From contig CAIWAN010000029.1 in the NCBI GenBank assembly GCA_903910705.1, forward strand, positions 1-59,189: a stretch of DNA of 59,189 nucleotides. The letters are read 5' to 3'. The notes under the pieces are model-generated. The model saw nothing but the letters and a program-made list of their open reading frames with translations, had not been told where the DNA came from and searched no databases. Below are positions 17,820-31,959 of the stretch, piece by piece. The stretch comes from an uncultured Candidatus Marinamargulisbacteria bacterium. GTDB taxonomy: Bacteria; Margulisbacteria; Riflemargulisbacteria; GWF2-35-9. Every line of letters starts with the position of its first letter. Position 1 is the first letter of the stretch. A program made the translations under genes and the position numbers.

Positions 17820-18136
17820 GTGGACTTGAGTCTCAGACCGTTACAAAGATCAAGCAATGCCTAGCCGAGGTTCCCGAGATCGACAAGGCGATTCTCTATG
17901 GGTCGAGGGCAAAGGGTAATTATAAAACAGGGTCAGACATTGATCTCACTCTGTTCGGTAATGGTCTAACCATGAAATTACTCTATATGCTGCAAGAAAA
18001 ACTGGACAATTTATATCTCCCTTACACCTTCGATCTGTCCATTTTTGTTAATCTGGAGAATCCCGACTTAATCGACCATATCCAGCGTGTGGGTGTGGTG
18101 TTCTATGAAAAAAAAGAAGGTATATTTTGCGCCTAA
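17816..18136 (+). CDS. Minimal nucleotidyltransferase (MNT), antitoxin partner
   Basis: 106 residues. The Pol-beta-like core is AILYGSRAKGNYKTGSDIDL, which provides the GSxxxG substrate loop and the catalytic Asp pair; FDLSIFVNLENPDLI gives the third acidic position. In HEPN/MNT pairs this protein modifies and neutralises the HEPN protein using ATP. The start overlaps the HI0074 stop (ATGA). The end overlaps the phoR frame by ten bases, an arrangement that ties phoR translation to this module. Length is normal for the family. Confidence 0.85.
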   Translation: MSGLESQTVTKIKQCLAEVPEIDKAILYGSRAKGNYKTGSDIDLTLFGNGLTMKLLYMLQEKLDNLYLPYTFDLSIFVNLENPDLIDHIQRVGVVFYEKKEGIFCA

Positions 18137-19518
18137 CGCTCTTACAAAAAGGATTCCTTGGTTTTGGTGGCATCATCAGTCTTGGTATGCTTTTATTGAC
18201 GCTCTCAATGACGTCATTCTTTATGAATTATGGCCTTTCTGTTCACGAGAATTCCCTTAAACACCATGCGACCTACATTATGCAGACGCCGCAGCTTAGC
18301 GATCAAGCCCTTCACCATTACGCCCAGATCCACGGCATCCGTATTACCTTGATCGATCCCAAAGGAACGGTTCGTTTTGATACCGAAGCCTCGCCCACCA
18401 CCATGGAGAACCATTTATCCAGACCCGAAATTCGAAACGCGATAGCTAAGGGAATGGGGGTTCGCATTCATCAAAGTGAAACCCTAAAAAAACCCATGAT
18501 GTACGTGGCGATAAAGGCTTCCGATGGTCATTTTATCCGAACCGCCATGGACATTGCCAGCGTCCACGAGGAGCAAAACCACGTTCAACACCTTATCGCC
18601 CTAGCAACCGTGCTGATCCTCCTCGCCATATTATTTCTCCTGTATGTCTCTTTGAAAAAACTATTGGCTCCCCTTCGGAACGTTAATGATAATTTAAAGA
18701 AATTAGCGCAAGGCGAACAGATCATATCCGTCCCCATTCAAAGCAAAGATGAACTGGGCGATCTTTCTGTAACGACGAACCAACTCATCGAGCAGATCGC
18801 CGCCCAACAGGAACGGTTGAAGTCTTTAGAAAATCTACGCCGTGACTTTGTAGCCAATGTGTCTCACGAACTTCGCACCCCTCTTAGCGCGATCGTCGGA
18901 TTCCTTCAAACCCTCGAAGATGGCGCCATCGATGATGCCACACATAATCGACGTTTTTTAACCATTATCGCTCGGAATGTTGAGCGGCTGACCCATCTCG
19001 TCGATGATATTCTTAACCTCGCTCGTATCGAAAACAATACCGCCCCAACCCAACGCCTCAATATAACCCAAGAACTGAGCCAATTGTTAGAAGACATGGC
19101 GCTTATCGATAACCCCCGTATTAAACTGAGCCTTCCCCCCAAGTCGATCTTTATCCATATCAATCAAAGTGAGCTGCTTTCCGCGTTTCGAAACTATATT
19201 GATAACGCCATCAAATATGCCCCTGAAGGAGACATTCAGATTGCGCTAAGCGAAACAGATGACAGCGTCCAATATGCGGTCACCGACCATGGCCAAGGGA
19301 TCGCTCAACCCTTTCAAGAGCGGCTATTTGAGCGCTTCTATCGCCCTGACAAAGATCGGTCGCGTGAATTTGGCGGCACAGGGCTAGGGCTTGCCATCGT
19401 CAAACATATCCTTCAAAAACAGGGCGGTCAGGTTTTGGTCACTAGCACTGTGGGCGTGGGCTCAACCTTTAGCTGGATTCTTCCCAAGCATCACGGGGAT
19501 GTGACAGAATTGTCATGA
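18127..19518 (+). CDS. phoR: PhoR-type sensor histidine kinase
   Basis: 463 residues with a TTG start preceded by AAGAAGG. Topology: a first membrane helix (about 11-35), a periplasmic domain of about 120 residues, a second helix near 160-178, a HAMP-like linker (LLAPLRNVNDNLKKLAQGE), and a HisKA domain with RRDFVANVSHELRTPLS (phosphorylated His near 247). The HATPase domain ends with FGGTGLGLAIVKHILQKQGG. The sequence around the His is characteristic of PhoR kinases, which sense phosphate limitation through PstS-ABC and PhoU. A PhoB-type regulator follows and pstS lies nearby, so the phosphate role is supported by context. The start lies inside the MNT gene. Confidence 0.85.
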   Translation: MRLTLLQKGFLGFGGIISLGMLLLTLSMTSFFMNYGLSVHENSLKHHATYIMQTPQLSDQALHHYAQIHGIRITLIDPKGTVRFDTEASPTTMENHLSRPEIRNAIAKGMGVRIHQSETLKKPMMYVAIKASDGHFIRTAMDIASVHEEQNHVQHLIALATVLILLAILFLLYVSLKKLLAPLRNVNDNLKKLAQGEQIISVPIQSKDELGDLSVTTNQLIEQIAAQQERLKSLENLRRDFVANVSHELRTPLSAIVGFLQTLEDGAIDDATHNRRFLTIIARNVERLTHLVDDILNLARIENNTAPTQRLNITQELSQLLEDMALIDNPRIKLSLPPKSIFIHINQSELLSAFRNYIDNAIKYAPEGDIQIALSETDDSVQYAVTDHGQGIAQPFQERLFERFYRPDKDRSREFGGTGLGLAIVKHILQKQGGQVLVTSTVGVGSTFSWILPKHHGDVTELS

Positions 19519-19543
19519 AATCGTCACAATTCATCCGTATACT
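19510..19543 (+). promoter_or_regulatory. Pho-box-like direct repeat and promoter of phoB
   Basis: TTGTCAT (19510-19516), four bases GAAA, TCGTCAC (19521-19527), then ten bases and TATACT (19538-19543). Two seven-base direct repeats with a four-base A-rich spacer, replacing a -35 box, are the classical PhoB-binding architecture, and the ten-base gap to the -10 is right. It implies autoregulation of phoB from inside the end of phoR. Equivalent sites precede the porin gene and a small peptide gene. Confidence 0.7.
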
Positions 19544-19555
19544 GTGTTCAAAGCT

Positions 19556-20254
19556 ATGACAAAAATATTGATCGTTGATGACGAAGCGGATTTAGTCGAA
19601 CTGATTCGTTTCCACTTAGAGAAGAACAATTTCTCCGTTTTAACGGCAGGCGATGGTGAGGCGGCGCTTATCGATATTCGCCGATTACACCCCGATTTGA
19701 TCATTCTTGACTGGATGCTACCCAAAATGGAAGGCATCGAGGTCTGCAAAAAAGTGCGACAAGACCCAACACTCGCCAAAACCCCGATCATCATGTTATC
19801 GGCAAAAAGTGAAGAATTCGACAAAGTCCTTGCCCTCGAACTCGGTGCCGATGATTATTTAAGCAAACCCTTTAGTCCGCGAGAACTGGTGGCTCGCGTC
19901 AAAGCGATCCTTCGACGATCGGTCGGAGCGGTTGAACCCGTCACCAAAAAAGAAGACCATCTCACTCTGGGAGCGTTGACCATCGATACCGCCACCTACG
20001 AAGTCCAACTTAACGCGACGCCCCTCCCCTTGACCAAAACAGAGTTCGAACTGCTCCTGACGCTTGCCGGTCAGCCCCAACGTGTTTTTACCCGAGAGCA
20101 ACTGCTCTACAAGGTCTGGGGTGACGACTTTTATGGCGATAATCGAGTCGTCGACGTCCACATTCGTCGGCTCCGCGCCAAACTCGAAGCCGTCACCGAC
20201 TTCGAATACGTCCGCACCGTTCGCGGTGTTGGGTATAAATTTAGCACGGGGTAG
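19556..20254 (+). CDS. phoB: PhoB-type response regulator
   Basis: 232 residues starting MTKILIVDDEADLVELI. The receiver domain has the acidic pocket (DDEAD), the phosphoacceptor Asp in LIILDWMLPKMEG and the LYS-containing DDYLSKPFSPREL loop. A winged-helix OmpR/PhoB DNA-binding domain follows (LTKTEFELLLTLAGQ, FTREQLLYKVWGDDF, VDVHIRRLRAKLE). It would bind the pho-box direct repeats upstream of itself and of the porin. Upstream GTG and ATG starts lie within the promoter; the chosen ATG gives the canonical N-terminus. The gene pair phoR-phoB is in order kinase first, reversed from E. coli. Confidence 0.88.
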   Translation: MTKILIVDDEADLVELIRFHLEKNNFSVLTAGDGEAALIDIRRLHPDLIILDWMLPKMEGIEVCKKVRQDPTLAKTPIIMLSAKSEEFDKVLALELGADDYLSKPFSPRELVARVKAILRRSVGAVEPVTKKEDHLTLGALTIDTATYEVQLNATPLPLTKTEFELLLTLAGQPQRVFTREQLLYKVWGDDFYGDNRVVDVHIRRLRAKLEAVTDFEYVRTVRGVGYKFSTG

Positions 20255-20263
20255 ATATTGCCG

Positions 20264-20509
20264 CTATCGATACGCGTCTTTGCGATGCAAAATGCGACCA
20301 ATAACAATCACATCATTTGATACATCAAACAAAACTCGATACGAGCCGACTCGCAACCGGTAGGCTGGCGAATAGTTTGACAATCGTTTAATTTGACTTA
20401 CATTAGGAAACGCTGAGAGCTCCTGAATATGGGAAAGCATTGATTTTCTTTTTGTTACGTCAAGCTGGTCTAAGTCTTTGATAGCTGAGCGACGAAGATC
20501 AATTTTCAT
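20264..20509 (-). CDS. RelE/ParE-family toxin
   Basis: 81 residues: MKIDLRRSAIKDLDQLDVTK at the start and LSNYSPAYRLRVGSYRVLFD near the middle. The YRLRVGSYRVLF...VIVIGRILHRKDAY arrangement is the RelE/ParE fold's strand-turn-helix core, with the basic residues that contact mRNA or gyrase. The C-terminal HRKDAYR tail is characteristic of RelE-type mRNA interferases. It lies convergent to phoB and overlaps the upstream antitoxin by 11 bases on the same strand, as in other type II modules. Confidence 0.88.
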   Translation of the reverse strand: MKIDLRRSAIKDLDQLDVTKRKSMLSHIQELSAFPNVSQIKRLSNYSPAYRLRVGSYRVLFDVSNDVIVIGRILHRKDAYR

Positions 20510-20726
20510 TCAATAAATATTGCTCCAAGGAAACCGTCTCTTCTCCTCGAGTTTGCTCAAGCATATAAAGGTCAAGCATGTCCTGTATCTTTTCGATATT
20601 AACGGCATTAAGCAAGATATATTTATCTGTATTGCCAGCAATAAAAAGCAGCTCATTTCCACTTCTAATTGAGTTCATGGCTTCTAAGGGACGAGTCAAA
20701 AATTGGTCTTCGGTGAGCTTAATCAT
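20499..20726 (-). CDS. Phd/YefM-like antitoxin
   Basis: 75 residues from the chosen ATG, beginning MIKLTEDQFLTRPLEAMNSI. The first 45 residues resemble the Phd/YefM fold (a short beta strand, helix, and the LLFIAGNTDKYILLNAVNIEKI stretch), though the match is weak. The acidic C-terminal half (EETVSLEQYLLNEN) would wrap the RelE-type toxin. Upstream in-frame ATG codons are possible but add a hydrophobic run not seen in antitoxins. It is coupled by overlap with the toxin gene. The antitoxin role follows mostly from position. Confidence 0.7.
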   Translation of the reverse strand: MIKLTEDQFLTRPLEAMNSIRSGNELLFIAGNTDKYILLNAVNIEKIQDMLDLYMLEQTRGEETVSLEQYLLNEN

Positions 20727-20774
20727 CAAAGACAATAATACAACACATGTCAATAACAGGGAAGTTATGGCAGG

Positions 20775-20809
20775 CCGTCATCTAAACGTCACAATTTCTT
20801 CCTCAAAAT
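20775..20809 (+). promoter_or_regulatory. Pho-box-like direct repeat upstream of the porin/pstS genes
   Basis: CCGTCAT (20775-20781), CTAA, ACGTCAC (20786-20792), then AATTTC. The block from the second repeat on closely matches the phoB site (CGTCACAATTC versus CGTCACAATTTC). A weak -10, CAAAAT, lies eleven bases after the repeat. The 140-base leader to the porin ATG has a further -10-like TATACA at 20845-20850. It lies just upstream of the porin and pstS genes that PhoB would be expected to control. Confidence 0.65.
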
Positions 20810-20948
20810 GAGATGCTCGCGTTGCAATAGCGACATCTAATCTTTATACAATTCTATCAAAACGTAAGGATAAAAAGAGGAGGTGCCACGCTTACAACAA
20901 CGTGCACGGTTAAGAAGAAGACAGTGATTATTTGAAAGGAGCATTTGA

Positions 20949-21911
20949 ATGAAAAAACAATCGATCTTAATAGGCGCCATGGCTTTGATGCTAGCGGCCA
21001 CAAGCTTTGGACTCGATATCGACGGAAAGGTAAAGAGCTCATTTGGATTTTTACTCGGAGATAATCAAGACGGCAGTTGGATGACCGAAAAAGCAGCCAA
21101 CAACAGCACAAGTCCCGCAGACAGTGCACTTTACAAAACCATCGTTGGGCTTACCCTCAAGAACGATGACACCTCGCTATATTGGGAAAGCAAATTCACC
21201 GCGAGCGGAACAGCCATCGGCATGTCAGCGGCTTATTTGTACATCACCACCGAGTTGAAGTCTCTACCAGGGTCACTTCGCGTCGGTTACCAACGCATGG
21301 GCATCCTTGATGCAGAAACACATCCCTATTCCGACGGAAGTTTTTACACCTACTGTAAAGACAAAGGCGTTGGGGTTTCGTACATGGTTCCCGTTGGCGA
21401 CTTTGACCTAAAGATCACTCAATTAGGCACAATGCCAGGGGTTGAAGGCTTTACCAACAATAACAACACAAAGTCGTTCTTAGGCGCGATGCTCAAATCC
21501 GGTAAAGATTGGACGGTAGGCGCTGTATATAGTGCTGATTCGACACCCAACAACAGTGTTAGTGGATTTTCTCTATATGGCGATTATACCTTCATTCAAG
21601 ACGACCTAAAGTTAGTCGGAACAGCGTGGTATGATCTAAATGATGATGCAAGTAAAGCCTACATTACTCAAAAGACAAAAGCAAAACAGTACTATGGCCT
21701 TTATGCCAACTATGACGTAAACGCTGACACTCAACTGTATGTGAACTACCTCCTCGATGCTAATCAAGTTAATATTAGCAACAAGCTCAGTGGTGGTGTA
21801 AAATACAAATTGTCGAGCCGCGTTACGGGGTATTTCCATTTAGAGCAAGTCACCGCTATTAATGGAACAACAACAGGCTTTTCGTCAGTTGCGCTTGAGA
21901 CATCACTATAA
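20949..21911 (+). CDS. Outer-membrane beta-barrel protein, candidate phosphate-starvation porin
   Basis: 320 residues. The signal peptide MKKQSILIGAMALMLAATSF ends near GLDIDGK. The rest alternates hydrophobic and polar residues as in a barrel (VGLTLKNDDTSLYWESKFTA, GLYANYDVNADTQLYVNYLL), with no Cys and many Asn, Gly and Tyr. AAAGGAG precedes the ATG. It has no recognised porin family signature by eye; calling it a phosphate or anion porin rests on the Pho-box-like site upstream and the pstS gene fourteen bases downstream, with which it is surely cotranscribed. Confidence 0.7.
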   Translation: MKKQSILIGAMALMLAATSFGLDIDGKVKSSFGFLLGDNQDGSWMTEKAANNSTSPADSALYKTIVGLTLKNDDTSLYWESKFTASGTAIGMSAAYLYITTELKSLPGSLRVGYQRMGILDAETHPYSDGSFYTYCKDKGVGVSYMVPVGDFDLKITQLGTMPGVEGFTNNNNTKSFLGAMLKSGKDWTVGAVYSADSTPNNSVSGFSLYGDYTFIQDDLKLVGTAWYDLNDDASKAYITQKTKAKQYYGLYANYDVNADTQLYVNYLLDANQVNISNKLSGGVKYKLSSRVTGYFHLEQVTAINGTTTGFSSVALETSL

Positions 21912-21925
21912 AGAAAGGAACCACT

Positions 21926-22822
21926 ATGAAAAACAAACCATTAGTAGCTCTCGTTCTCGCTGGATCCCTGTTTGCTCAGGTTGGATTCGGAATGGTTCAG
22001 GTCAAAGGATCTGACACCATGGTCAACTTGGCTCAGAAATTAGCCGAAGTGTATATGCAAAAGAATCCTAACGACAAGATCGCCGTAACAGGCGGAGGCT
22101 CTGGCACAGGCGTTGCGGCGTTAATCAACAGCAAATGTGATATCGCCAACTCGTCTCGTTCGATGAAAGACAAAGAGCTCAAAAAAGCCAAAGAAAAAGG
22201 CGTCGAGGTCAAAGAGATCGCCGTCGCTGTTGATGCGCTTAGTATCGTTGTGAATGATGGCAATCCGTTAACCAGTATTTCCAAAGAATCGCTCGCGGCC
22301 ATTTATAAAGGCGAAGTGACCAACTGGAAAGAAGTCGGCGGCCCAGACCTTGCGATCTCGCTTTATGGTCGTCAACCCAACTCTGGCACGTTCGATTTCT
22401 TCCGTGAGCATGTGCTTGCTGGCGAATACTCCAACAAAATGGCTCAGATGAATGGTACTTCACAGATCGTTGATGCAGTCAGACAAGACAACGGTGGTAT
22501 CGGTTATGCCGGCGTGGGTTATGTGGTTGATAATGGCAAGCCGGTCAAAGGGATCAAGATCCTCCCCGTTTCCGAAAAAGACGGTGACAAGGCCTACTCA
22601 CCCCTCGATGAAAAGAATATTTACTCCGGTAAATATCCAATCGCTCGTGCCCTATTTCAATATGTCGATGGCGCACCCAAAGGCGTTGCCAAGAGCTTCA
22701 TCGAATTTGAATTATCCGACGAAGGTCAAAAGCTCGTAGAGGCCGAAGGTTTCTATCGTGTAAAAGGTAAATTCGCCGACGCGAACACAGCCATTTACTC
22801 GAAGAAAACCAAAGTTTTCTAA
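21926..22822 (+). CDS. pstS: Phosphate-binding periplasmic protein
   Basis: 298 residues with a signal peptide (MKNKPLVALVLAGSLFAQVG) and no lipobox Cys, so a soluble periplasmic form. Phosphate-binding motifs are VQVKGSDTMVNLAQK, TGGGSGTGVAALI, ANSSRSMK and YGRQPNSGTFDFFREHVL. It captures phosphate for the PstCAB importer and is a Pho-regulon member in most bacteria. The gene sits in the porin operon behind the Pho-box-like site and ends in a strong terminator. No pstC, pstA, pstB or phoU follow within the window, which is unusual for pstS. AAAGGAACC provides the ribosome-binding site. Confidence 0.92.
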   Translation: MKNKPLVALVLAGSLFAQVGFGMVQVKGSDTMVNLAQKLAEVYMQKNPNDKIAVTGGGSGTGVAALINSKCDIANSSRSMKDKELKKAKEKGVEVKEIAVAVDALSIVVNDGNPLTSISKESLAAIYKGEVTNWKEVGGPDLAISLYGRQPNSGTFDFFREHVLAGEYSNKMAQMNGTSQIVDAVRQDNGGIGYAGVGYVVDNGKPVKGIKILPVSEKDGDKAYSPLDEKNIYSGKYPIARALFQYVDGAPKGVAKSFIEFELSDEGQKLVEAEGFYRVKGKFADANTAIYSKKTKVF

Positions 22823-22845
22823 AAGTAAGCGATTGTTCTAAATAA

Positions 22846-22880
22846 ACAAAGAGGCCGCTTTCGCGGCCTCTTTGTTATAA
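22846..22880 (+). terminator. Rho-independent terminator after pstS
   Basis: ACAAAGAGGCCGC (22846-22858) and GCGGCCTCTTTGT (22863-22875) form a perfect 13-bp stem around TTTC. The last bases of the stem are T-rich on the 3' side. It separates pstS from the arsenic genes. Confidence 0.9.
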
Positions 22881-22898
22881 TAAAAGAAGGAGTTCTTC

Positions 22899-23321
22899 AT
22901 GACAAAAGTTTTATTCGTTTGTATCCATAATTCCGCTCGGAGTCAAATGGCCGAGGCGTTCGTTAACAAATACGGCCAAGGCGAGATCGTAGCCGAAAGT
23001 GCAGGGCTCGAACCGGGCAAGCTCAACCCTATCGTGGTCGAGGCCATGAAAGATATCGGCATCGACATCTCCAACAACCCCACCAAAAGTGTCTTCGACT
23101 TTTACAAACAAGGCAATCTCTACAACTATGTAATCACCGTCTGCGATGAAACCAGTGGCGAGCAGTGCCCCCTATTTCCGGGTATCACCGAGCGTTTACA
23201 CTGGGGCTTTCCCGACCCTTCTAGCTTTACAGGCACCCATGATGAACGACTCCAACAAACAAAAACCGTTCGCGATGCGATCGAGACAAAGATCGTCGAT
23301 TGGATTAAAACAATATCATGA
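22899..23321 (+). CDS. arsC: Arsenate reductase, low-molecular-weight phosphatase type
   Basis: 140 residues. The P-loop is FVCIHNSARSQMAEAF, the C-X5-R of LMW-PTP-related arsenate reductases. Later Cys residues in VCDETSGEQCPLFPG are placed like the redox pair of the thioredoxin-coupled ArsC of Gram-positive bacteria. The WGFPDPSSF segment carries the general acid Asp. It reduces arsenate to arsenite, with electrons from thioredoxin. AAGAAGGAG precedes the ATG; TATAAT lies at 22877-22882. It overlaps the next start by four bases, so reductase and pump are coupled. Confidence 0.92.
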   Translation: MTKVLFVCIHNSARSQMAEAFVNKYGQGEIVAESAGLEPGKLNPIVVEAMKDIGIDISNNPTKSVFDFYKQGNLYNYVITVCDETSGEQCPLFPGITERLHWGFPDPSSFTGTHDERLQQTKTVRDAIETKIVDWIKTIS

Positions 23322-24355
23322 ATATTTTCGAGCGTTATTTATCGGTATGGGTGGCGCTTTGCATGGTCATTGGCGTGGCTATCGGCACCCTCTTTCCCGA
23401 AGTAACGGGGCTTATTCGTCAGTTCGAGTTTGGCAAAAACAGTCATATCAACATTCCCATCGCGATCCTGATCTGGCTGATGATCTATCCGATGATGTTA
23501 AAGATCGACTTTCATTCTCTACTAAGTGTTGGCAAAGAACCGAAGGGGCTCTTGGTCACCCTTGGGGTAAACTGGCTCGTCAAACCCTTTAGCATGGCTC
23601 TTTTGGGCTGGGTGTTTTTCAAGCTTCTTTTCTTGCCCATGTTGGGCATCGATCTGGCGAACCAATATTTGGCTGGCGCGATCATCTTATCAGCAGCGCC
23701 CTGTACCGCGATGGTCTTTGTCTGGAGCTACCTGACCAACGGCAACCCCGCCTACACGCTTGTTCAGGTGGCGGTGAACGACTTGATCATGCTGGTTCTG
23801 TTTGCGCCCATCGTCGCCTTTCTCGTCACGGGCACCGCAGGGATTACCGTTCCTTATAATGTGCTGTTCTTATCCGTCATTATTTTTATCGTCATTCCTT
23901 TGTTGTTAGGCGTCATCTCTCGGGTCGTTATGCTAAAGTATTGGAGAAAAGCCCGTTTCGAGCAGTTCATGGCAACACTTCATCCCGTCACGATGATAGC
24001 GCTTCTCTTAACCTTGATCACGATCTTTGCTTTTCAGGCGGACAATCTTATCATTCGTTGGTTCCATGTCATCTTGATCGCGATCCCCCTACTCATTCAG
24101 GTGTATTTCAACAGCAGCCTGACCTATTTAGTGATGCGTTGGCTGAAAGTGCCACATAATATCGCAGCCCCAGGGGCGTTGATCGGTGCAAGTAATTTCT
24201 TCGAGTTAGCCGTTGCCACAGCGATCGCGCTGTATGGCCCCAGTTCAGGTGCGGCACTCGCAACCGTTGTCGGGGTTCTTGTCGAAGTCCCGGTGATGCT
24301 ATCGATCTGCGGAGTTTGCAATCGGTCAAAGGACTGGTATAAACTAGGCCTATAG
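23318..24355 (+). CDS. acr3: Arsenite efflux transporter, ACR3 family
   Basis: 345 residues with ten predicted membrane segments. Family-defining motifs are [20 protein letters not shown], the catalytic-Cys region [15 protein letters not shown], and [20 protein letters not shown], with the conserved [19 protein letters not shown] and a late EVPVML. ACR3 exports arsenite by proton antiport. Its four-base overlap with arsC shows they act together: arsenate is reduced, then arsenite is pumped out. No ArsR repressor or ArsM gene was found nearby. Being next to the phosphate locus suits the fact that arsenate enters cells by phosphate import. Confidence 0.93.
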
Positions 24356-24386: not shown

Positions 24387-24812
24387 ATGATAAAATACTT
24401 CAGTATGATTCTGGTGGGGTTGTTTTTATTGATCCAATTGATCCCTTTTGGCAAAGATCATCAAAATCCCCCGATTCAATCCGAACCGAAATGGAACGCG
24501 CCTGCCACCAAACAATTATTTGCCCGCGCCTGTAATGATTGTCATAGCCATGAAACCAAATGGCCTTGGTACAGCCATGTAGCCCCAATCTCATGGTTAA
24601 CTCAACGAGATGTTATCGAAGGGCGGGAATATTTCAATGTCTCTTTGTGGGGGACTCAAAAGAAAAACAAAGGAGACGAAGCAGCCGAGGAGCTTGAAAA
24701 AGGCAAGATGCCCCCTTGGTTCTATTTACCCACGCATCCTGAGGCAAGATTATCTCCAACTGAACGAACAGCCTTAACCAAAGGATTATTGTCGACTTTC
24801 GGTGGCGATTAA
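24387..24812 (+). CDS. Haem-binding domain protein (Haem_bd family)
   Basis: 141 residues with an N-terminal membrane anchor ([20 protein letters not shown]). The motif [20 protein letters not shown] is the CxxCH c-type haem site with the family's KWPWYS..AP signature. The following [19 protein letters not shown] and [16 protein letters not shown] are typical of the same family. It would be a membrane-bound, periplasm-facing monohaem protein, perhaps an electron carrier. TTGGAGG precedes the ATG. The gene ends four bases inside the convergent gene. Confidence 0.85.
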
Positions 24813-26086
24813 TGTATCTCTGGTGCCTTAAACGGCTCGTTTAACCGATCTGTATCTTTACGAACACTCGCCTGCCCCACTTCGCTTCTCAAATAAGCAA
24901 CACGGTTAAGGTAGAGGGACGCTTCTTTGAAGGTCGATTTCTTTAACTCTGCAGCGACCTCGTTTAGGAGACGGTTCGCCTCGTCAGGCTTTGAGTCGCG
25001 ATATAGAATTTCAGCGTGTCGAAGTTTAGCGTAGCAAGCAAGGTTGCGGGCAATAGCATGGTGTTTATCCAATAACTTATAAACGGCTTTATAGCTATGT
25101 TTTGTTCCAACTTCTCGATGGCTAATAAACTCAATGTCTGCTTGTTGTAACCTCACATAAGCCGTCAGCGCGACTTTTTCGGCACCTTCGGGAAGGAGCC
25201 CCACCTTCAGGACTAACTCATGTAATACCTTTTGTTGTTTATCAATAGCAGGTGACGGATCGGACTTATTATGAAAGGGTTCGAAGAAGTGAATAACAGT
25301 CGAGTAAAGTCCATTAGGCACACAATCAAGCGTATAAAGCCGTATGAACTCTTTGGCTACCTGATTGATCTCCGAGTATAACTTAACAACTGGCGTCAGA
25401 TTCGAGGGGGCGGCCTCCTTCTTTTGTTGTTCAATTCTATGTGAATTTGTTTCTTTGGTATCTGGCTTCTTTTCTGGCTTAGGTGCGGATTTCTTTTCAG
25501 TCTTCTGGGTTGTCTTCTTTCCCGTCGATTGAGGTATAGGCGTTATTCGATATTCGTCATATCGGGTATATTTCATTCCAAGTAGGGCTCGGGATGTCCG
25601 TGGTCCTAAATGGCCGCCATTTTTGGATATTTTCTTTCTTCTCTGATAAGTCCAAACATCCTGTTTAAACTGCTCAAAGGCATATTGACTCGGATCAAAG
25701 GATTCGTCCTGCCCTCCCAAACGCTTGTAGAGAAGCTGTTTTATAGCTAACGTAAGGGCATTAAAATCCGCATCATCTTTGGTCGAAAGATGCCCCCTTC
25801 GTCGAACAAACTGATGCAACATATCGTTTAATGTCTGTTCGTCATTGTCGATGATCGTCGTATCGGATTTGGAATCTTCTAAGATCGGCATTTCTAACGG
25901 GGTAATATTTAAATGCATATTTCCCAAGGTTTGATCCTTTGATGAATCCGGCAAGGACAAAGACCTGAGACTTGTCAGCGTAGAGGTTGAATCAATAATC
26001 GATTTCGTTATCCCATACTTTTGAGTGTTGCCCCGATAGTCTATCGGATAAGGTTGCAGAAGCGATACCTTTAATGAGTCGCTCAT
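24809..26086 (-). CDS. Unrecognised protein with a peptidoglycan-binding-like motif and helical C-terminus
   Basis: 425 residues, no signal peptide or clear membrane helix, family not recognised. Residues 1-125 are low in complexity with many Ser and Thr. A segment near 140-175 ([17 protein letters not shown], then [14 protein letters not shown]) resembles the peptidoglycan-binding type 1 pattern (V..Q....G.LG..T...L). A Lys/Glu/Pro-rich linker of about 40 residues ([19 protein letters not shown]) follows. The last 200 residues look all-helical and may be TPR-like, with [20 protein letters not shown]. It is the last gene of a three-gene unit: its ATG overlaps the upstream stop and is preceded by AAGG. 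Motif calls are by eye only. Confidence 0.6.
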
Positions 26087-28980
26087 GATTTGACCTTCAT
26101 TGCCTTTTTGAAATCGGGAACGATTCTTTCTTCAAGCTTTTCTTTTATTTTGGGATCTAGATTGATCTGGTCATTATTAAGGGAACGTTTTTCATTGTTA
26201 ATTAAATCATCTGAAAAAGCACTGAAAGACTTTTTAAATTCATCAATAAGAGCGGCCCCATTTTCTTTCTGATCCCATATCCATAAAATGTTTAGAAAGG
26301 ACTTAACTTTTTGGAGTGTATTACCACTCTCTGATACGATAGGCAACAAGTGTGAAAAATCCATCTGACGTTGTTTCCAGTTTTTCTGTTTATAGAGTAT
26401 TCCCTTGATCGTCAGTGACGCTATTTCAGAGAATAATTTCGTTGCGATGATCGTATCCCAACTTAACCCTAATGAGCTTGCGACACCGTATATAAAGAGC
26501 CCCATCGCGGTATCCAAACCTTCAATCCCAAACTTTCGCAGATTCTCCGAACTCAAGGCTTTTCCTATCGCCAAAGACTTGATACTCTGAGCCAACATGA
26601 TATATACCATTTTCAATAATCCAACAGCAATATTTGAAGCATTATTAAACCAAAAATAGGACAAATCCGAAGTCAAATCAGCTGACTGCATTAGATCAAA
26701 CGTCGAATTATAGGCTCCTTTCATCAGTGAAATTGCTAGCATCGTTTTAAATATTGTATAGGCCACATCCGGCCAAAGAATGAATGAGGGTCGCCATCTT
26801 TTGGGGTTTAGACTTGCAAACGCCAATTGATGTTCGGCCATCCCCTTGATAAAGGCTATTGTAAGGGCTCCGATCGTCAAGGGAATAGTCAATGAAAGGG
26901 CTGGTGGAGAGATGATTCCGGGGATCAGGCTCATTACAAAAAACCCAGCGAAAACCCATTTCGGGTTTAACGTTTTGGCGTGTATCATTGTTTCACGTCC
27001 CCGTTCAAAAATCTCTTCCCTTACTCGGCTAAGCAAACGCGTATAGCTATTATTGGGAGTAACGCTTAGCGCCGTATTTTTTAAATTTTGAAACATATTG
27101 GCGACTTTGCCAGAGGGAAGCTCGTCTTCTATATTTGTTTGTTCGTTATCACTGCTAAATAATTGAGCATGCCCTAACTGTTTCGGACAAGGATGTTGCG
27201 CGTCATACCAATACTCTATCTTTATCGGTTCTATATGGGGTTGGGCGCACGCATATTTGGTTAAGTCAGATTCGAAGTAATCGAGAACCATTCCCTTGAG
27301 CTTTGATTCTTTGAGCGTCCCAAGAATATCGAAGGAAAGTCGTTTCGCTAATCGAATAAGCCGTTTGATAGACTGAGTGTCCTCATAGTCATTTTTGCAA
27401 ATATTTAGCAAATTCGTTTGCTCGTCTTCCGAGGGCATACCCATAACGGTTAAAGAATTATTGGTTAATATATATTTTCCATTCGACTGACTGCAAAATG
27501 TTTGGAATCTTTCAGCCTGATATATATCTACACTTGTTCCCTTCATATATTGATTAATACAATCGACATACGTCTCGACTACTTTCACGTCGGTAATTGC
27601 CTTTTGATACTCGATGGATTCTTCGTCTCTAGGAAGGAAAAAAGCGATCCCTTTGATATTAGGAAAGTTTTCAATGAGCGTTAATAGAACTTGACTCGAG
27701 TCGGGCTTGCCGTACACACTCAACAAGGGCTCAAACGCCTGAACGGTTTGTAGTAATTGATTCATGTTCGGGAATGTCTTGTCAAAGTCAGCGGGTGCTA
27801 AATACTTATCACGAACATAAATTTGGTCAAGTTCTCTTATCAGCGTTTCATAGAACTCAATTTTATTTAATATAGGGGATAATTTATTTATTCGATATTT
27901 TTCAGTGTTTAGGTATGCCAATCGTTTCATTGCCATGGTGGTTATTTTGTCAATAATGAGCGCAGCCAAGTCTTCCCGTGAGGGTGGACCATTTGTTGAC
28001 TTTAAGAGCTCATCGTAAGTAATTTTTTGCAAACAAAGTTCTTGTCTTCTTTCATACCCAAGATTAAACGTTGGCACATCAGTGATCGATTTTTCGGGGA
28101 TGGTCAGTCCAATTTTTAGTTCGTCACCAATGGGATCCCCATTAAACCGAGCAATTTGATATTTTATGAGCTGTTGGTGGATAGCTTCTGTCTTTTTTTC
28201 ATGATCAATGATGGACGTTATCACATCATCCAAAGTCTGACTTGTGATCGCGAAACTAATGTTGTTTCGATACCAGTCGCCCTTATCATTAAGACGATTC
28301 GCGCTATATTCTAATCGGCATTGAAGCGTTATGCCGAGTATCTTCGCTGCGTTTTCTGCCTCAGAGATCGTCTCTTTAAGCGTCTTTATATCGGTGGGCT
28401 TATCGTAAGTGATCATAACGTTTTTATATCCTGCAGTATATTGCTCCAACACTAAGGCAACAGAGCTTGTTTTAGTTTGTACCACATCACGTACACGGGA
28501 TGTTTCCGTGGACGCTACCGACTTCAGATGATACTTGTTTAAATCAAGATTTTCTCCGGTGGATTCGACTAAAACAAGATTAAGACGCTGATACATTTCG
28601 AGTATATTGTTTTGATCGTTTGGATGTTCTAATACCTTTAATGTCAGATTGAGTAGGACTCGGGGCCAATGGCTATCAGTTTCTTTGTAAGAATAGAGTG
28701 ATTTGAACCGGTCAAGAATATTTTTCAGATGCGCAGCATCCATATTTCCAAGCGTTTGATTGTCTTTAATCATAATCAGCAGGGCTGCAATAGTTTGAAC
28801 AAGCGGATGATCATAAATTGACGAATTAATCCCATTCAAGCAGGTATCATCTGCATCAAAGTATTCACTAACATTTTCAGTTCCTGATAATAATCGGATC
28901 AAGGTTTTAACGTCATTGTTAAGCGACCTTGGAATAGGGGTATCAATTGTTGAGAGGGCAATGACCTTATAGCCAGTCAT
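26083..28980 (-). CDS. Unrecognised 965-residue protein with a membrane domain
   Basis: No family recognised. Residues 1-660 look soluble and mixed alpha/beta. A possible nucleotide- or ligand-binding region lies near 175-300 (YKNVMITYDKPTDIKTLKE and IARFNGDPIGDELKIGLTIP), and residues 405-575 include another compact part (IKGIAFFLPRDEE). About six hydrophobic stretches follow between 674 and 860, for example WVFAGFFVMSLIPGIISPPA and AMGLFIYGVASSLGLSWDTI. The last 100 residues are charged and soluble. There is no signal peptide, so the N-terminal part is probably cytoplasmic. The start overlaps the upstream gene's stop by four bases, and its stop overlaps the next start, so the three proteins are likely made together. 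Base composition appears more A+T-rich than in the flanking genes. Confidence 0.65.
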   Translation of the reverse strand: MTGYKVIALSTIDTPIPRSLNNDVKTLIRLLSGTENVSEYFDADDTCLNGINSSIYDHPLVQTIAALLIMIKDNQTLGNMDAAHLKNILDRFKSLYSYKETDSHWPRVLLNLTLKVLEHPNDQNNILEMYQRLNLVLVESTGENLDLNKYHLKSVASTETSRVRDVVQTKTSSVALVLEQYTAGYKNVMITYDKPTDIKTLKETISEAENAAKILGITLQCRLEYSANRLNDKGDWYRNNISFAITSQTLDDVITSIIDHEKKTEAIHQQLIKYQIARFNGDPIGDELKIGLTIPEKSITDVPTFNLGYERRQELCLQKITYDELLKSTNGPPSREDLAALIIDKITTMAMKRLAYLNTEKYRINKLSPILNKIEFYETLIRELDQIYVRDKYLAPADFDKTFPNMNQLLQTVQAFEPLLSVYGKPDSSQVLLTLIENFPNIKGIAFFLPRDEESIEYQKAITDVKVVETYVDCINQYMKGTSVDIYQAERFQTFCSQSNGKYILTNNSLTVMGMPSEDEQTNLLNICKNDYEDTQSIKRLIRLAKRLSFDILGTLKESKLKGMVLDYFESDLTKYACAQPHIEPIKIEYWYDAQHPCPKQLGHAQLFSSDNEQTNIEDELPSGKVANMFQNLKNTALSVTPNNSYTRLLSRVREEIFERGRETMIHAKTLNPKWVFAGFFVMSLIPGIISPPALSLTIPLTIGALTIAFIKGMAEHQLAFASLNPKRWRPSFILWPDVAYTIFKTMLAISLMKGAYNSTFDLMQSADLTSDLSYFWFNNASNIAVGLLKMVYIMLAQSIKSLAIGKALSSENLRKFGIEGLDTAMGLFIYGVASSLGLSWDTIIATKLFSEIASLTIKGILYKQKNWKQRQMDFSHLLPIVSESGNTLQKVKSFLNILWIWDQKENGAALIDEFKKSFSAFSDDLINNEKRSLNNDQINLDPKIKEKLEERIVPDFKKAMKVKS

Positions 28981-30506
28981 TTTGACAACCTTATGTTTTG
29001 AGAAATTTCGCCAAAATATTGGAACCAGACGCTGACGACGGAAGGGTTAATATTCGGAAATAGTGGTTTGTCGTTGCTGGTGACACCTATAATATCGGTG
29101 GTCTCGCCTTTTTCGTTGCGTATGGGGACAAGAAAACCAGAAGTAATTTCTCCAGAGCGTGGAAGGAAGTCCTCAATATGTTTCTTTAGTGGATGAGCAA
29201 TCTCCGAAAAATACAGAAAAGGATTGTTTTCAAAATACGTTAATAACGACTCCATTTCTTTAGTGATGGTATTGTCTTTCCCTGTTATCCGCACATCATA
29301 TCCTCCAGTTGCCTTGCTAGCCAAAAATGCGGTATCGCTACCCGAGAAATCTTTGACTCGATCGAGTATAACGGGGAGTGTTAAGGGGGCTTGCCTTGAA
29401 TTCTTGAATTCTTCCCGTATTCTCCCAAAACTTGTTTGAAGCTCTTCTACATATTCGCGTTGTTGGTCTTTTTCAGAGAACAGGCTATTCCCTGGCTTAA
29501 GGATGGTAATAATCCCAAAGGTTCTTTTCCCATCAATGGGACCAGGCTGAATACGAACGGGTATTTCTGTCTTTGTTTTTTCGTTGTAAAAGATGGCTTT
29601 GTATGGGTTAAAGTCTTCGTTCTGAATTTGATTTTTGCGAACTTCTGATAAACCATAATTATGGGTTACATCTAAAATATTTTTTCCAATAAGTTCATCT
29701 AACGTCATTCCCAAGGCATCCAATGCCGCTATATTTGCCCATTCTATTTGGCCATTTGACGCTAAGAACCCAACAGGCTCCATGTCCTGTACCATGCTTA
29801 TTATTGATAAAATGGAGAAACTGTTGTTAGTAATTTTTTTTAATAAATCGGTCTCTTTTGGATTTAACTGATTCATTTTGTCGATATCGAAAAACATCAA
29901 ACCGTTTATTTTTTGTGCTTGAATGTCCTTCATGATGCTCAAATATCCAGGAAATTCTTCTTCCGAAAGTATTTCTTTTATTTTAGCGATTTCAATAACG
30001 CGAGCTGAATAATCAGGGGGGCTTGTTTGAGTGGGAAGAACCTTTGCTTTTACTTTTTGGTAAATGTCTCGGCTCATATTCTTAAACATGCTTATCATTG
30101 ATAAAATGGGAGAACTTTCATTCATAAGCATTTTTTTTATCTTTGACTTATTAACAGCTGATATTCCCTGCGATGAAAGAATCAACGTATCAATTTCGTT
30201 GGAATCGAAAAACATCAAACCATTTATCTTTTCCCTATTATTTCCAATCGTCTCATCAATGAATTCTAGCTCTGGTACAGATAAAAATTGTTTCAAAATA
30301 GCGGTGTCAATAACGTGAACTCGATATTTAGGGGACATTGGTTCTGTGGGTAAAGCATTAAAAACGTCTCCAAGTGTTGTTGCCTTATTGGTTGGTTTCC
30401 AAATTTTACCCGTTATATAACTCCCAGCCGTGGAAAAGAAGCCTCGCTTTCGCCCAACCTTAGATTCTTCTGTAGACATAGCTATAACCTTCTTGTTCAT
30501 ATTCAT
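28977..30506 (-). CDS. Unrecognised sensor-like protein: tandem duplicated module, PAS, GAF-like
   Basis: 509 residues, no membrane segment. Two copies of an 80-85-residue module lie at about 59-144 and 165-242; both contain KINGLMFFD and end in [SF]ILS[MI]ISM..[ND]M. A PAS-type domain follows at about 243-338 (PVGFLASNGQIEWANIAALD, IPVRIQPGPIDGK), then a helical linker, then a GAF-like domain (375-500; SGSDTAFLASKATGGYDVRI, FLVPIRNEKGETTDIIGVTS). No kinase, GGDEF or DNA-binding output is present, so it probably signals to its two downstream partners. The ATG used gives KKVIAMST, like the KVIALST of the next protein. A second start at 30479, preceded by AGAAGG, is equally possible. Confidence 0.65.
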   Translation of the reverse strand: MNMNKKVIAMSTEESKVGRKRGFFSTAGSYITGKIWKPTNKATTLGDVFNALPTEPMSPKYRVHVIDTAILKQFLSVPELEFIDETIGNNREKINGLMFFDSNEIDTLILSSQGISAVNKSKIKKMLMNESSPILSMISMFKNMSRDIYQKVKAKVLPTQTSPPDYSARVIEIAKIKEILSEEEFPGYLSIMKDIQAQKINGLMFFDIDKMNQLNPKETDLLKKITNNSFSILSIISMVQDMEPVGFLASNGQIEWANIAALDALGMTLDELIGKNILDVTHNYGLSEVRKNQIQNEDFNPYKAIFYNEKTKTEIPVRIQPGPIDGKRTFGIITILKPGNSLFSEKDQQREYVEELQTSFGRIREEFKNSRQAPLTLPVILDRVKDFSGSDTAFLASKATGGYDVRITGKDNTITKEMESLLTYFENNPFLYFSEIAHPLKKHIEDFLPRSGEITSGFLVPIRNEKGETTDIIGVTSNDKPLFPNINPSVVSVWFQYFGEISQNIRLSK

Positions 30507-30555: not shown

Positions 30556-31959
30556 TTACGAAACGACCTTATTGTGGCGTTTGAGAAGGGCATGAATGAG
30601 GCGTTCTTCGGCAATGACCAGATCCCCCATTTTGTAGGCTCCGGGGGTTATGCCTTTTAAATCACAAAAGGAGGCGAAAAGTTTAAAATTATTAGGGTCG
30701 ATCCGCCCCACTGTTTCCTCGACGATTTGGGCATCCATACTATCCCAAGCAAGCAAAAACGACTCAGCCAAACACCCCAATGTATTATGGTCATTCCCAA
30801 ACCCAAAATTAAACCGTGAACGAAGACCAGAAACGCTTAACAGTCCACCTTCGAGAGTATAGCGCTTATCATCGAGTGTCGCGCGCGGGATAGCCTCCGG
30901 ACGCGAGTCATCGATAAAGATAAAGTGTTTAGGGATTTGCTGAAGCGAGATGATCGAACCGACATTCGAGGTCGCGCAAATGCCCATGTGACAGCCATCA
31001 AGCACCCGCTTTATCCGTTTTGGGGTAAACAGCGCCGTATGAATATGACTTTTGGGATATTGATGGGAGAAATCACGTCGAAGATGTCGCAACTTTTTCT
31101 GATTAATATCGATAAGTGTCACCTGCACGCCCCAATCGAGCAAAAACTCAGCACAGTGGCTCCCAATATTCCCACATCCAAGAATTGCGATATTGATCCT
31201 CTTTCGATCGATCTGGGACTTCTCGATCAGTTGCATCGTCGTGGTGACAATGGAATAGACGGTTGCGGTATGGCCCGTCGTAACGCGATACCCTCCCCCT
31301 TTAGCAAAGATCGATTTTACTAACGTTCCTTTTTTGGTCACCATCGGCCACCACCCACCCAGTCCAAGCACGATCTTGCGGGGGGTTGGGGCGCAATACT
31401 TGTCTAGCAGTTTCTTTGTTTTAAACAACTCTTGCTCCGTGCGTTTTCGCTCTTTCATGAGGGTATCAGGTAATAATGGTGTACTAACTAATAACCCTCG
31501 GAGGCCGTTTTCTGCATCAAAATGATCGATAATGCAGGGCGGGAAATGTTGGATCAGCTTCAAATAGAGCTTAGGTGAAAGACGCTTTAAGCCGTTCAAA
31601 AAAGGAAACACGCTTTGATAGTCTTGCACATACCGAGTATGAATAAAAAATACAAAATCAACCTTATGCCGTGGGAGCGGTAGCGGGATGAAGGTATAGA
31701 TCATCGTCACCACAAAATTGCGCATCGTCTCTAAAAATGTCTGCCCCCTGACCGCTTGTTCGTGGTACATTTTCTCGGCTAAGTCAAAGAATCGAACAAT
31801 CTTTGGGGCTTGTGGTTTGGCTCTTGTGCCGGGACTAGGGTGAAGCAACCACTCTTTATGTCTGTGGCTTTTGGTTACCGAGAACTCATGATGATGGCGA
31901 GCGATGTGTTTAACAAACAAATTCAGTGGAACCGCAACATCCTGAGTCTTGTTAGGCAT
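30556..31959 (-). CDS. Acyl-ACP reductase-like (AAR-type) oxidoreductase
   Basis: 467 residues. A Rossmann NAD(P)-binding site lies at IAILGCGNIGSHCAEFLLDWG (about residue 255). Before it, IVLGLGGWWPMVTKKG and RVTTGHTATVYSIVTTTM align with the LGGFTS and TTGNTHTA motifs of cyanobacterial fatty-acyl-ACP reductase. MGICATSNVGSI may hold the catalytic Cys used for acyl-enzyme formation. These enzymes reduce fatty acyl-ACP to aldehydes, used for alkanes, wax esters or ether lipids; no decarbonylase or wax synthase gene is nearby. The N-terminal 90 residues contain an extra basic stretch. TATAGT is six bases before the ATG. The substrate is inferred from similarity only. Confidence 0.6.
   Translation of the reverse strand: MPNKTQDVAVPLNLFVKHIARHHHEFSVTKSHRHKEWLLHPSPGTRAKPQAPKIVRFFDLAEKMYHEQAVRGQTFLETMRNFVVTMIYTFIPLPLPRHKVDFVFFIHTRYVQDYQSVFPFLNGLKRLSPKLYLKLIQHFPPCIIDHFDAENGLRGLLVSTPLLPDTLMKERKRTEQELFKTKKLLDKYCAPTPRKIVLGLGGWWPMVTKKGTLVKSIFAKGGGYRVTTGHTATVYSIVTTTMQLIEKSQIDRKRINIAILGCGNIGSHCAEFLLDWGVQVTLIDINQKKLRHLRRDFSHQYPKSHIHTALFTPKRIKRVLDGCHMGICATSNVGSIISLQQIPKHFIFIDDSRPEAIPRATLDDKRYTLEGGLLSVSGLRSRFNFGFGNDHNTLGCLAESFLLAWDSMDAQIVEETVGRIDPNNFKLFASFCDLKGITPGAYKMGDLVIAEERLIHALLKRHNKVVS

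Follow-up and report, generated by a model that had tools for sequence, protein, structure and literature searches.

We found that the similar N-termini of two adjacent genes, here called A and B, are instances of what sequence comparison shows to be a tag found across the class on many proteins that are otherwise unrelated. Together with a third gene, C, they form a reverse-strand block in the window, the whole analyzed stretch of 59,189 nucleotides from an uncultured Candidatus Marinamargulisbacteria bacterium. We consider it evenly balanced whether this previously undescribed consensus tag, which lies within the first ten residues, serves to move a large share of the proteins in the class, much of sugar metabolism included, either outward via a type III gate or to an internal compartment. 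Our preferred explanation, to which we give somewhat less than even confidence, is that A and B are members of a large tagged set, that the tag is a sorting signal, likely for type III export, and that the three genes are a cargo cluster.

The ORF coordinates agree with an earlier note on this DNA, which described three reverse-strand genes overlapping by four bases each (Table 1). Since both overlaps are ATGA, translation would be coupled between A and B and between B and C, and the overlap with A also fixes the start codon of B. Gene C additionally shares 4 bases with a convergent haem-binding gene at 24387-24812(+). The GC content of A (0.376), B (0.393), and C (0.434) compared to 0.455 for the remaining window bears out the note's statement that the block is richer in A+T than its neighbors, and its view that the proteins have no recognized family is essentially true. 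Directly upstream of A is a 467-aa NAD(P)-binding protein (30556-31959(-)), which weakly matches the N-terminal part of PigE, resembles acyl-ACP reductases by eye, and keeps the same position in G002, a genome of the same genus. A phosphate/arsenic neighborhood occupies 18127-24355(+) and includes a PhoR-like kinase, a PstS-like protein at 21926, a low-molecular-weight phosphatase/arsenate reductase-like protein at 22899, and an ACR3 arsenite exporter at 23318; pst genes also adjoin the relative of B in genome G007.

Table 1. Features of the three-gene block, in window coordinates.
Feature	Position	Strand	Basis or remark
Gene A	28977..30506	(-)	ORF, 509 aa
A tag MNMNKKVIA (K-V-I-A)	30480..30506	(-)	Pattern match; G002 orthologue
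A tandem module 1, about residues 52-145	30072..30353	(-)	Smith-Waterman
A tandem module 2, about residues 157-243	29778..30038	(-)	Smith-Waterman
A PAS domain, residues 248-335	29502..29765	(-)	PF13426, E=5.7e-7, over curated cut-off
A C-terminal region, residues 345-509, GAF-like by eye only	28980..29474	(-)	
A stop/B start ATGA overlap, 4 bases	28977..28980	(-)	Translational coupling inferred
Gene B	26083..28980	(-)	ORF, 965 aa
B tag MTGYKVIA	28957..28980	(-)	Start codon set by ATGA overlap with A
B PHP-like region, about residues 155-580	27241..28518	(-)	Profile-profile; suggestive only
B hydrophobic C-terminal region, about residues 670-870	26371..26973	(-)	Hydropathy; f21 relatives
B stop/C start ATGA overlap, 4 bases	26083..26086	(-)	Translational coupling inferred
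Gene C	24809..26086	(-)	ORF, 425 aa; no family
C peptidoglycan-binding-like pattern, residues 85-174	25565..25834	(-)	Shared (38%) with G002 protein

The likeness of the A and B N-termini (KKVIAMST and KVIALST), to which the note had drawn attention, is real, and when generalized it occurs far above chance. Similar starts were seen first in the G004 relative of B (MKCKLIAIQ), a 191-aa neighbor (MLNKIIANA), the SDH_alpha protein of G002 (MLQHKIIATI), and proteins of family f21 (MLSKIILTG). We defined the tag as M-x(1-5)-K-[ILV]-[IV]-[AS] at the ORF start, having set aside looser patterns that matched ordinary proteins (DnaK, adenylate kinase, and others) in every genome. In random stretches of three genomes of the class, G000 (the source of the window), G004, and G007, each sample covering roughly 10-20% of its genome, the tag starts 49 of 696 ORFs, compared to 2 of 224 from control lineages and one E. 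coli stretch (p=7e-5); the ORF start was the ATG within the first 45 codons that the pattern chose, which inflates the rates in class and controls alike. The counts were 11/258 for G000, 30/248 for G004, and 8/190 for G007. The pattern had been fixed before the G004 sequences and half of those from G000 were fetched; the other G000 half and the G007 set had helped to shape it. Elsewhere the tag was found at 1/80 in f2 and 2/143 in f21, and after internal Met codons at 9 of 5,149 (about 0.2%). Since a dozen tagged paralogues form one tandem family in G004, we recounted by homology family, and the tag was carried by 33 of 518 families compared to 2 of 191 in the controls (p=0.0013). The excess over related genomes is six- to eight-fold. 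Tagged genes are long and, in G000, AT-rich (GC 0.389 versus 0.452, p=5e-5), which is not clearly so in G004 or G007; the AT-richness of the block is thus a property of the tagged gene set in G000. In the literature collection searched, no description of such a tag was found.

We considered whether the tag could be ordinary N-terminal bias, with Lys and Ile common near the start of AT-rich genes, in which case the three genes would be unconnected orphans. The controls do match at about 1%, UvrB being one example, K-I-I starts near the N-terminus likewise occur on about 1% of ordinary proteins, and the looser patterns admit DnaK, adenylate kinase, and others. However, the size of the excess, its presence in held-out samples, and the family-level result argue against this reading, as does conservation of the tag between orthologues and across diverged paralogues, and we hold it to be distinctly unlikely. 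Between A and its G002 orthologue, residues 1-12 are identical and residues 13-40 are divergent, and members of the tandem family L181 of G004 keep the tag although paralogue pairs commonly share 25-35% identity. The codons of the tag vary freely (GCN, ATH), so selection acts on the protein rather than the nucleotides, and a nucleotide element was ruled out on these grounds. A role in translation or stability, such as an N-degron or ribosome-level control with no bearing on location, would suit a short element at the extreme N-terminus, but the lack of codon conservation and a Met-to-Lys distance that ranges from 2 to 6, unlike known N-degrons, leave it very improbable.

The tagged set is mostly mutually unrelated, and many of its members have no family at all. 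Sugar enzymes with the tag are phosphoglucose isomerase (PGI), phosphoglucomutase (PGM; two genomes), iPGM, class III FBPase, and glycogen phosphorylase. Others are CofD/YvcK-like proteins (two genomes), GTP cyclohydrolase II (GTPCH2), HAD, HD, thioredoxin-like, metallo-beta-lactamase, and MoxR-plus-FGE proteins, and a cysteine desulfidase-like SDH_alpha protein. Four consecutive tagged genes in G004 (L184:7448-12905, contig C26) encode a CofD/YvcK-like protein, a phosphoglucomutase, a phosphoglucose isomerase, and a HAD phosphatase. Among the sugar-phosphate enzymes found by motif in the class samples, nearly all are tagged, while glycogen synthase is untagged. G007 has near-tags outside the strict pattern, on PGK (MEIYNKIIQ) and a PHP protein (MLKKILAGG), which are resemblances only, and its orthologue of the tagged G004 phosphorylase is without the tag. 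Two adjacent tagged giants of 833 and 1578 aa, with no clear family, are located at L171:9217-16448 (G000, contig C63).

Since the tagged enzymes make up a pathway, a serious rival is that tagged proteins are sent to an internal site, such as a compartment, granule, or membrane-bound enzyme assembly, in what would be a bacterial analog of the glycosome; A and B would then reside there with part of sugar metabolism and many unfamiliar proteins. Whole sugar-metabolism enzymes look more like the contents of a compartment than like injected effectors, and the set is coherent, with the PGI, PGM, and CofD/YvcK-like genes adjoining in G004, iPGM, glycogen phosphorylase, and FBPase tagged, PGK near-tagged, and glycogen synthase the exception among motif-found enzymes. 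A tag on about 4 to 12% of ORFs also suits a subset of the proteome. On the other hand, neither a shell nor an import machine or receptor turned up in searches whose scope did not extend to microcompartment or encapsulin families, and the tandem, fast-diverging tagged family L181 resembles exported proteins more. On balance, we regard an internal place as rather unlikely.

Type III export is the route that we favor for the tagged proteins, tentatively and on genomic grounds, because each genome of the window's class has two FlhA/SctV-like loci. Across the phylum, 66 of 74 genomes have at least one such locus. Within the class, all 8 genomes have two, the second being fragmented in G003 and G006, and these 8 are exactly the genomes among the 74 that encode flagellin. 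Elsewhere in the phylum, most genomes have a single gate locus and lack flagellin, with a partial second copy in G045, so that a flagellin-less type III export apparatus is apparently present phylum-wide. The FHIPEP (FlhA/SctV-like) loci of G000 are at C91:10336-12363 and C53:96552-98570, and the gate locus of G073 is accompanied by FliM/FliN-like, FliP, FliR, and FlhB genes. The gate copies that we sampled are nearest to the FlhA model and fall just below the SctV cut-off. The type III route is weakened by gate-bearing genomes without a tag excess, as no excess was found for f26, f29, f30, and f2 (in class), which have the same apparatus, and by the lack of docking-motif enrichment. The FlhB-docking/gate motif, F-x-x-x-hydrophobic, followed the tag at a frequency of 0.35 in tagged proteins compared to 0.38 in random windows, and polar residues after the tag were only mildly enriched. 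In the literature collection searched, type III secretion in Margulisbacteria was likewise not described.

Gene A does contain a duplicated module, as previously proposed, since its two copies align with a Smith-Waterman score of 115 compared to a maximum of 56 in 1000 shuffles. Of the suggested PAS/GAF pair, the PAS domain was recovered by PF13426 (30.2 bits, cut-off 27), PF00989 (22.8 bits, cut-off 22.6; E=9.5e-5), and TIGR00229 (1.1e-6), while profile searches found no GAF match in residues 345-509, where the likeness is one of appearance only. Profile searches also found no kinase, cyclase, or other catalytic output domain, in agreement with the proposal that A lacks an enzymatic output. 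The orthologue of A in G002 (L008:55-1584(-)) is 80% identical and has the same upstream neighbor as in the window.

Full-length relatives of B are encoded in two other genera, one of 941 aa in G004 (L006:3392-6214) and one of 931 aa in G007 (L007:7566-10358). These two share 35% identity, and their identity to B is about 22-25%. Pfam, NCBIfam, and PDB searches returned no match to B, and no relatives of its family were found among the other genome contigs, viral contigs, plasmids, or phages searched. B had been described as a soluble and membrane protein; the C-terminal hydrophobic region holds up, although only one or two segments exceed the hydropathy cut-off. This region recurs in proteins of about 650 aa in family f21. 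There, at L021:4738-10178 and in L012, L013, and L015, a conserved gene pair behind an aldehyde dehydrogenase gene encodes proteins of about 650 aa and 1159 aa whose starts resemble the tag (MFCKIIVAR, MLSKIILTG), and it is the 650-aa member that has the C-terminal region of B.

A profile built from B and its relatives matched a PHP protein (E=4e-4 for one genome of 74). Aligned by hhalign to a three-sequence PHP alignment, the B family gave 90.6% and a score of 57, compared to 17-23 for reversed or unrelated controls; this signal comes mainly from one PHP sequence, L014, and B alone scored 18.6, the same as the controls. No Pfam match to PF02811 (PHP) was found in B. By eye, most of the PHP metal ligands (DxHxH, TDH, GxE, xHP, SDxH) are lost in B and its relatives, with mainly the E retained and, in the relatives, also the D of the last motif. 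Because the signal depends on one sequence, B alone is silent, and the metal-binding histidines are lost, the reading of the middle of B as a catalytically eroded or dead PHP domain is only suggestive. An AlphaFold model of B made without an alignment had a mean pLDDT of 37 and was too poor to use.

The peptidoglycan-binding-like motif noted earlier in C gained no profile support, since no Pfam match, PG_binding_1 included, was obtained at E<=10; NCBIfam and PDB searches were likewise empty. The sole relative of C is partial, with 90 residues at 38% identity in a 375-aa protein located elsewhere in G002, next to which comes the tagged SDH_alpha protein. The C-terminus is predicted to be helical (residues 330-419, pLDDT 70-87 in part), within a model made without an alignment whose mean pLDDT of 44 is too poor to use overall. 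A hint of a paralogue for C on C70 of the same genome (E=0.065) was dismissed as a spurious match to a TPR-like stretch.

The earlier note had read the three genes as an envelope-associated signaling or stress system and proposed a genome survey for the trio. The ATGA overlaps, which imply one transcript, the PAS domain in A, and the hydrophobic C-terminus of B fit a self-contained system of this kind. However, the A-B-C order was not found in the other genomes searched, and absence of the trio elsewhere is what the note had named as a refutation; in G002, the contig stops at the 3' edge of A. Outside the window's genome, A was found only in G002, and the relatives of B in G004 and G007 occur without A or C beside them, so that a conserved unit was not supported in other genera. 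The block also has no kinase, cyclase, or response regulator, and we give the trio system a low probability. The tag instead points to an undescribed sorting or export signal.

Under the sorting explanation that we prefer, the tag would be recognized, right at the N-terminal end, as a hydrophobic signal that sends the protein out of the cytosol, with the type III (flagellum-type) export apparatus being the most likely machine. A, B, and C would be a co-translated cargo cluster, in which A may be a soluble PAS protein with a sensing or binding role, B a large protein whose PHP-like domain is probably dead and whose hydrophobic C-terminus could enter a target membrane, and C a helical partner without the tag, possibly acting as a chaperone or scaffold. 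The lack of a tag on C speaks against this picture.

To our knowledge, few bacterial sorting signals have a readable consensus on many unrelated soluble proteins, and we know of no sequence rule that predicts the substrates of injectisomes. It would be very unusual for glycolytic enzymes to carry an added address tag. Should type III export depend on the tag, its consensus would supply such a rule for predicting substrates, and should the tag instead mark a compartment, bacteria would have a parallel to the glycosome; by either route, dozens of unfamiliar genes in an obscure lineage become one testable class.

Compared to PAS/GAF sensors, A likewise combines a PAS domain with a GAF-like end but differs in having no output domain and in the tag and unfamiliar duplicated module that precede the PAS domain. 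The B family aligns with one PHP protein (PF02811; TrpH/YciV-like) and has a similar motif order, but it differs in its mostly absent catalytic histidines, the missing Pfam match, and a membrane-like C-terminal addition. In the kinetoplastid glycosome, unrelated glycolysis enzymes share a short terminal targeting tag; that system is a eukaryotic organelle with other signals, whereas no bacterial organelle or receptor was found here. By inspection, the tag looks too short to be the amphipathic helical encapsulation peptide of microcompartment cargo. Flagellar rod and hook subunits such as FlgD carry a hydrophobic N-terminal export signal (PMC8983047), which is likewise a short, small, non-polar run near the N-terminus ahead of unrelated sequences. 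The tag described here differs in its fixed Lys-[ILV]-[IV]-[Ala/Ser], its presence on large enzymes and unfamiliar proteins, and the lack of enrichment of the FlhB-docking motif, and it is a candidate export signal. In Chlamydia, the phosphoglucomutase CT295, GlgP, and GlgA are type III-secreted sugar enzymes, according to excerpts of two reports (PMC9251005, PMC4829429). As in our set, these are housekeeping sugar enzymes, phosphoglucomutase and glycogen phosphorylase among them, and they carry N-terminal export signals where ours carry a candidate one. A consensus tag is not reported in those excerpts, while the putatively secreted enzymes described here share a common consensus and add PGI, iPGM, and FBPase.
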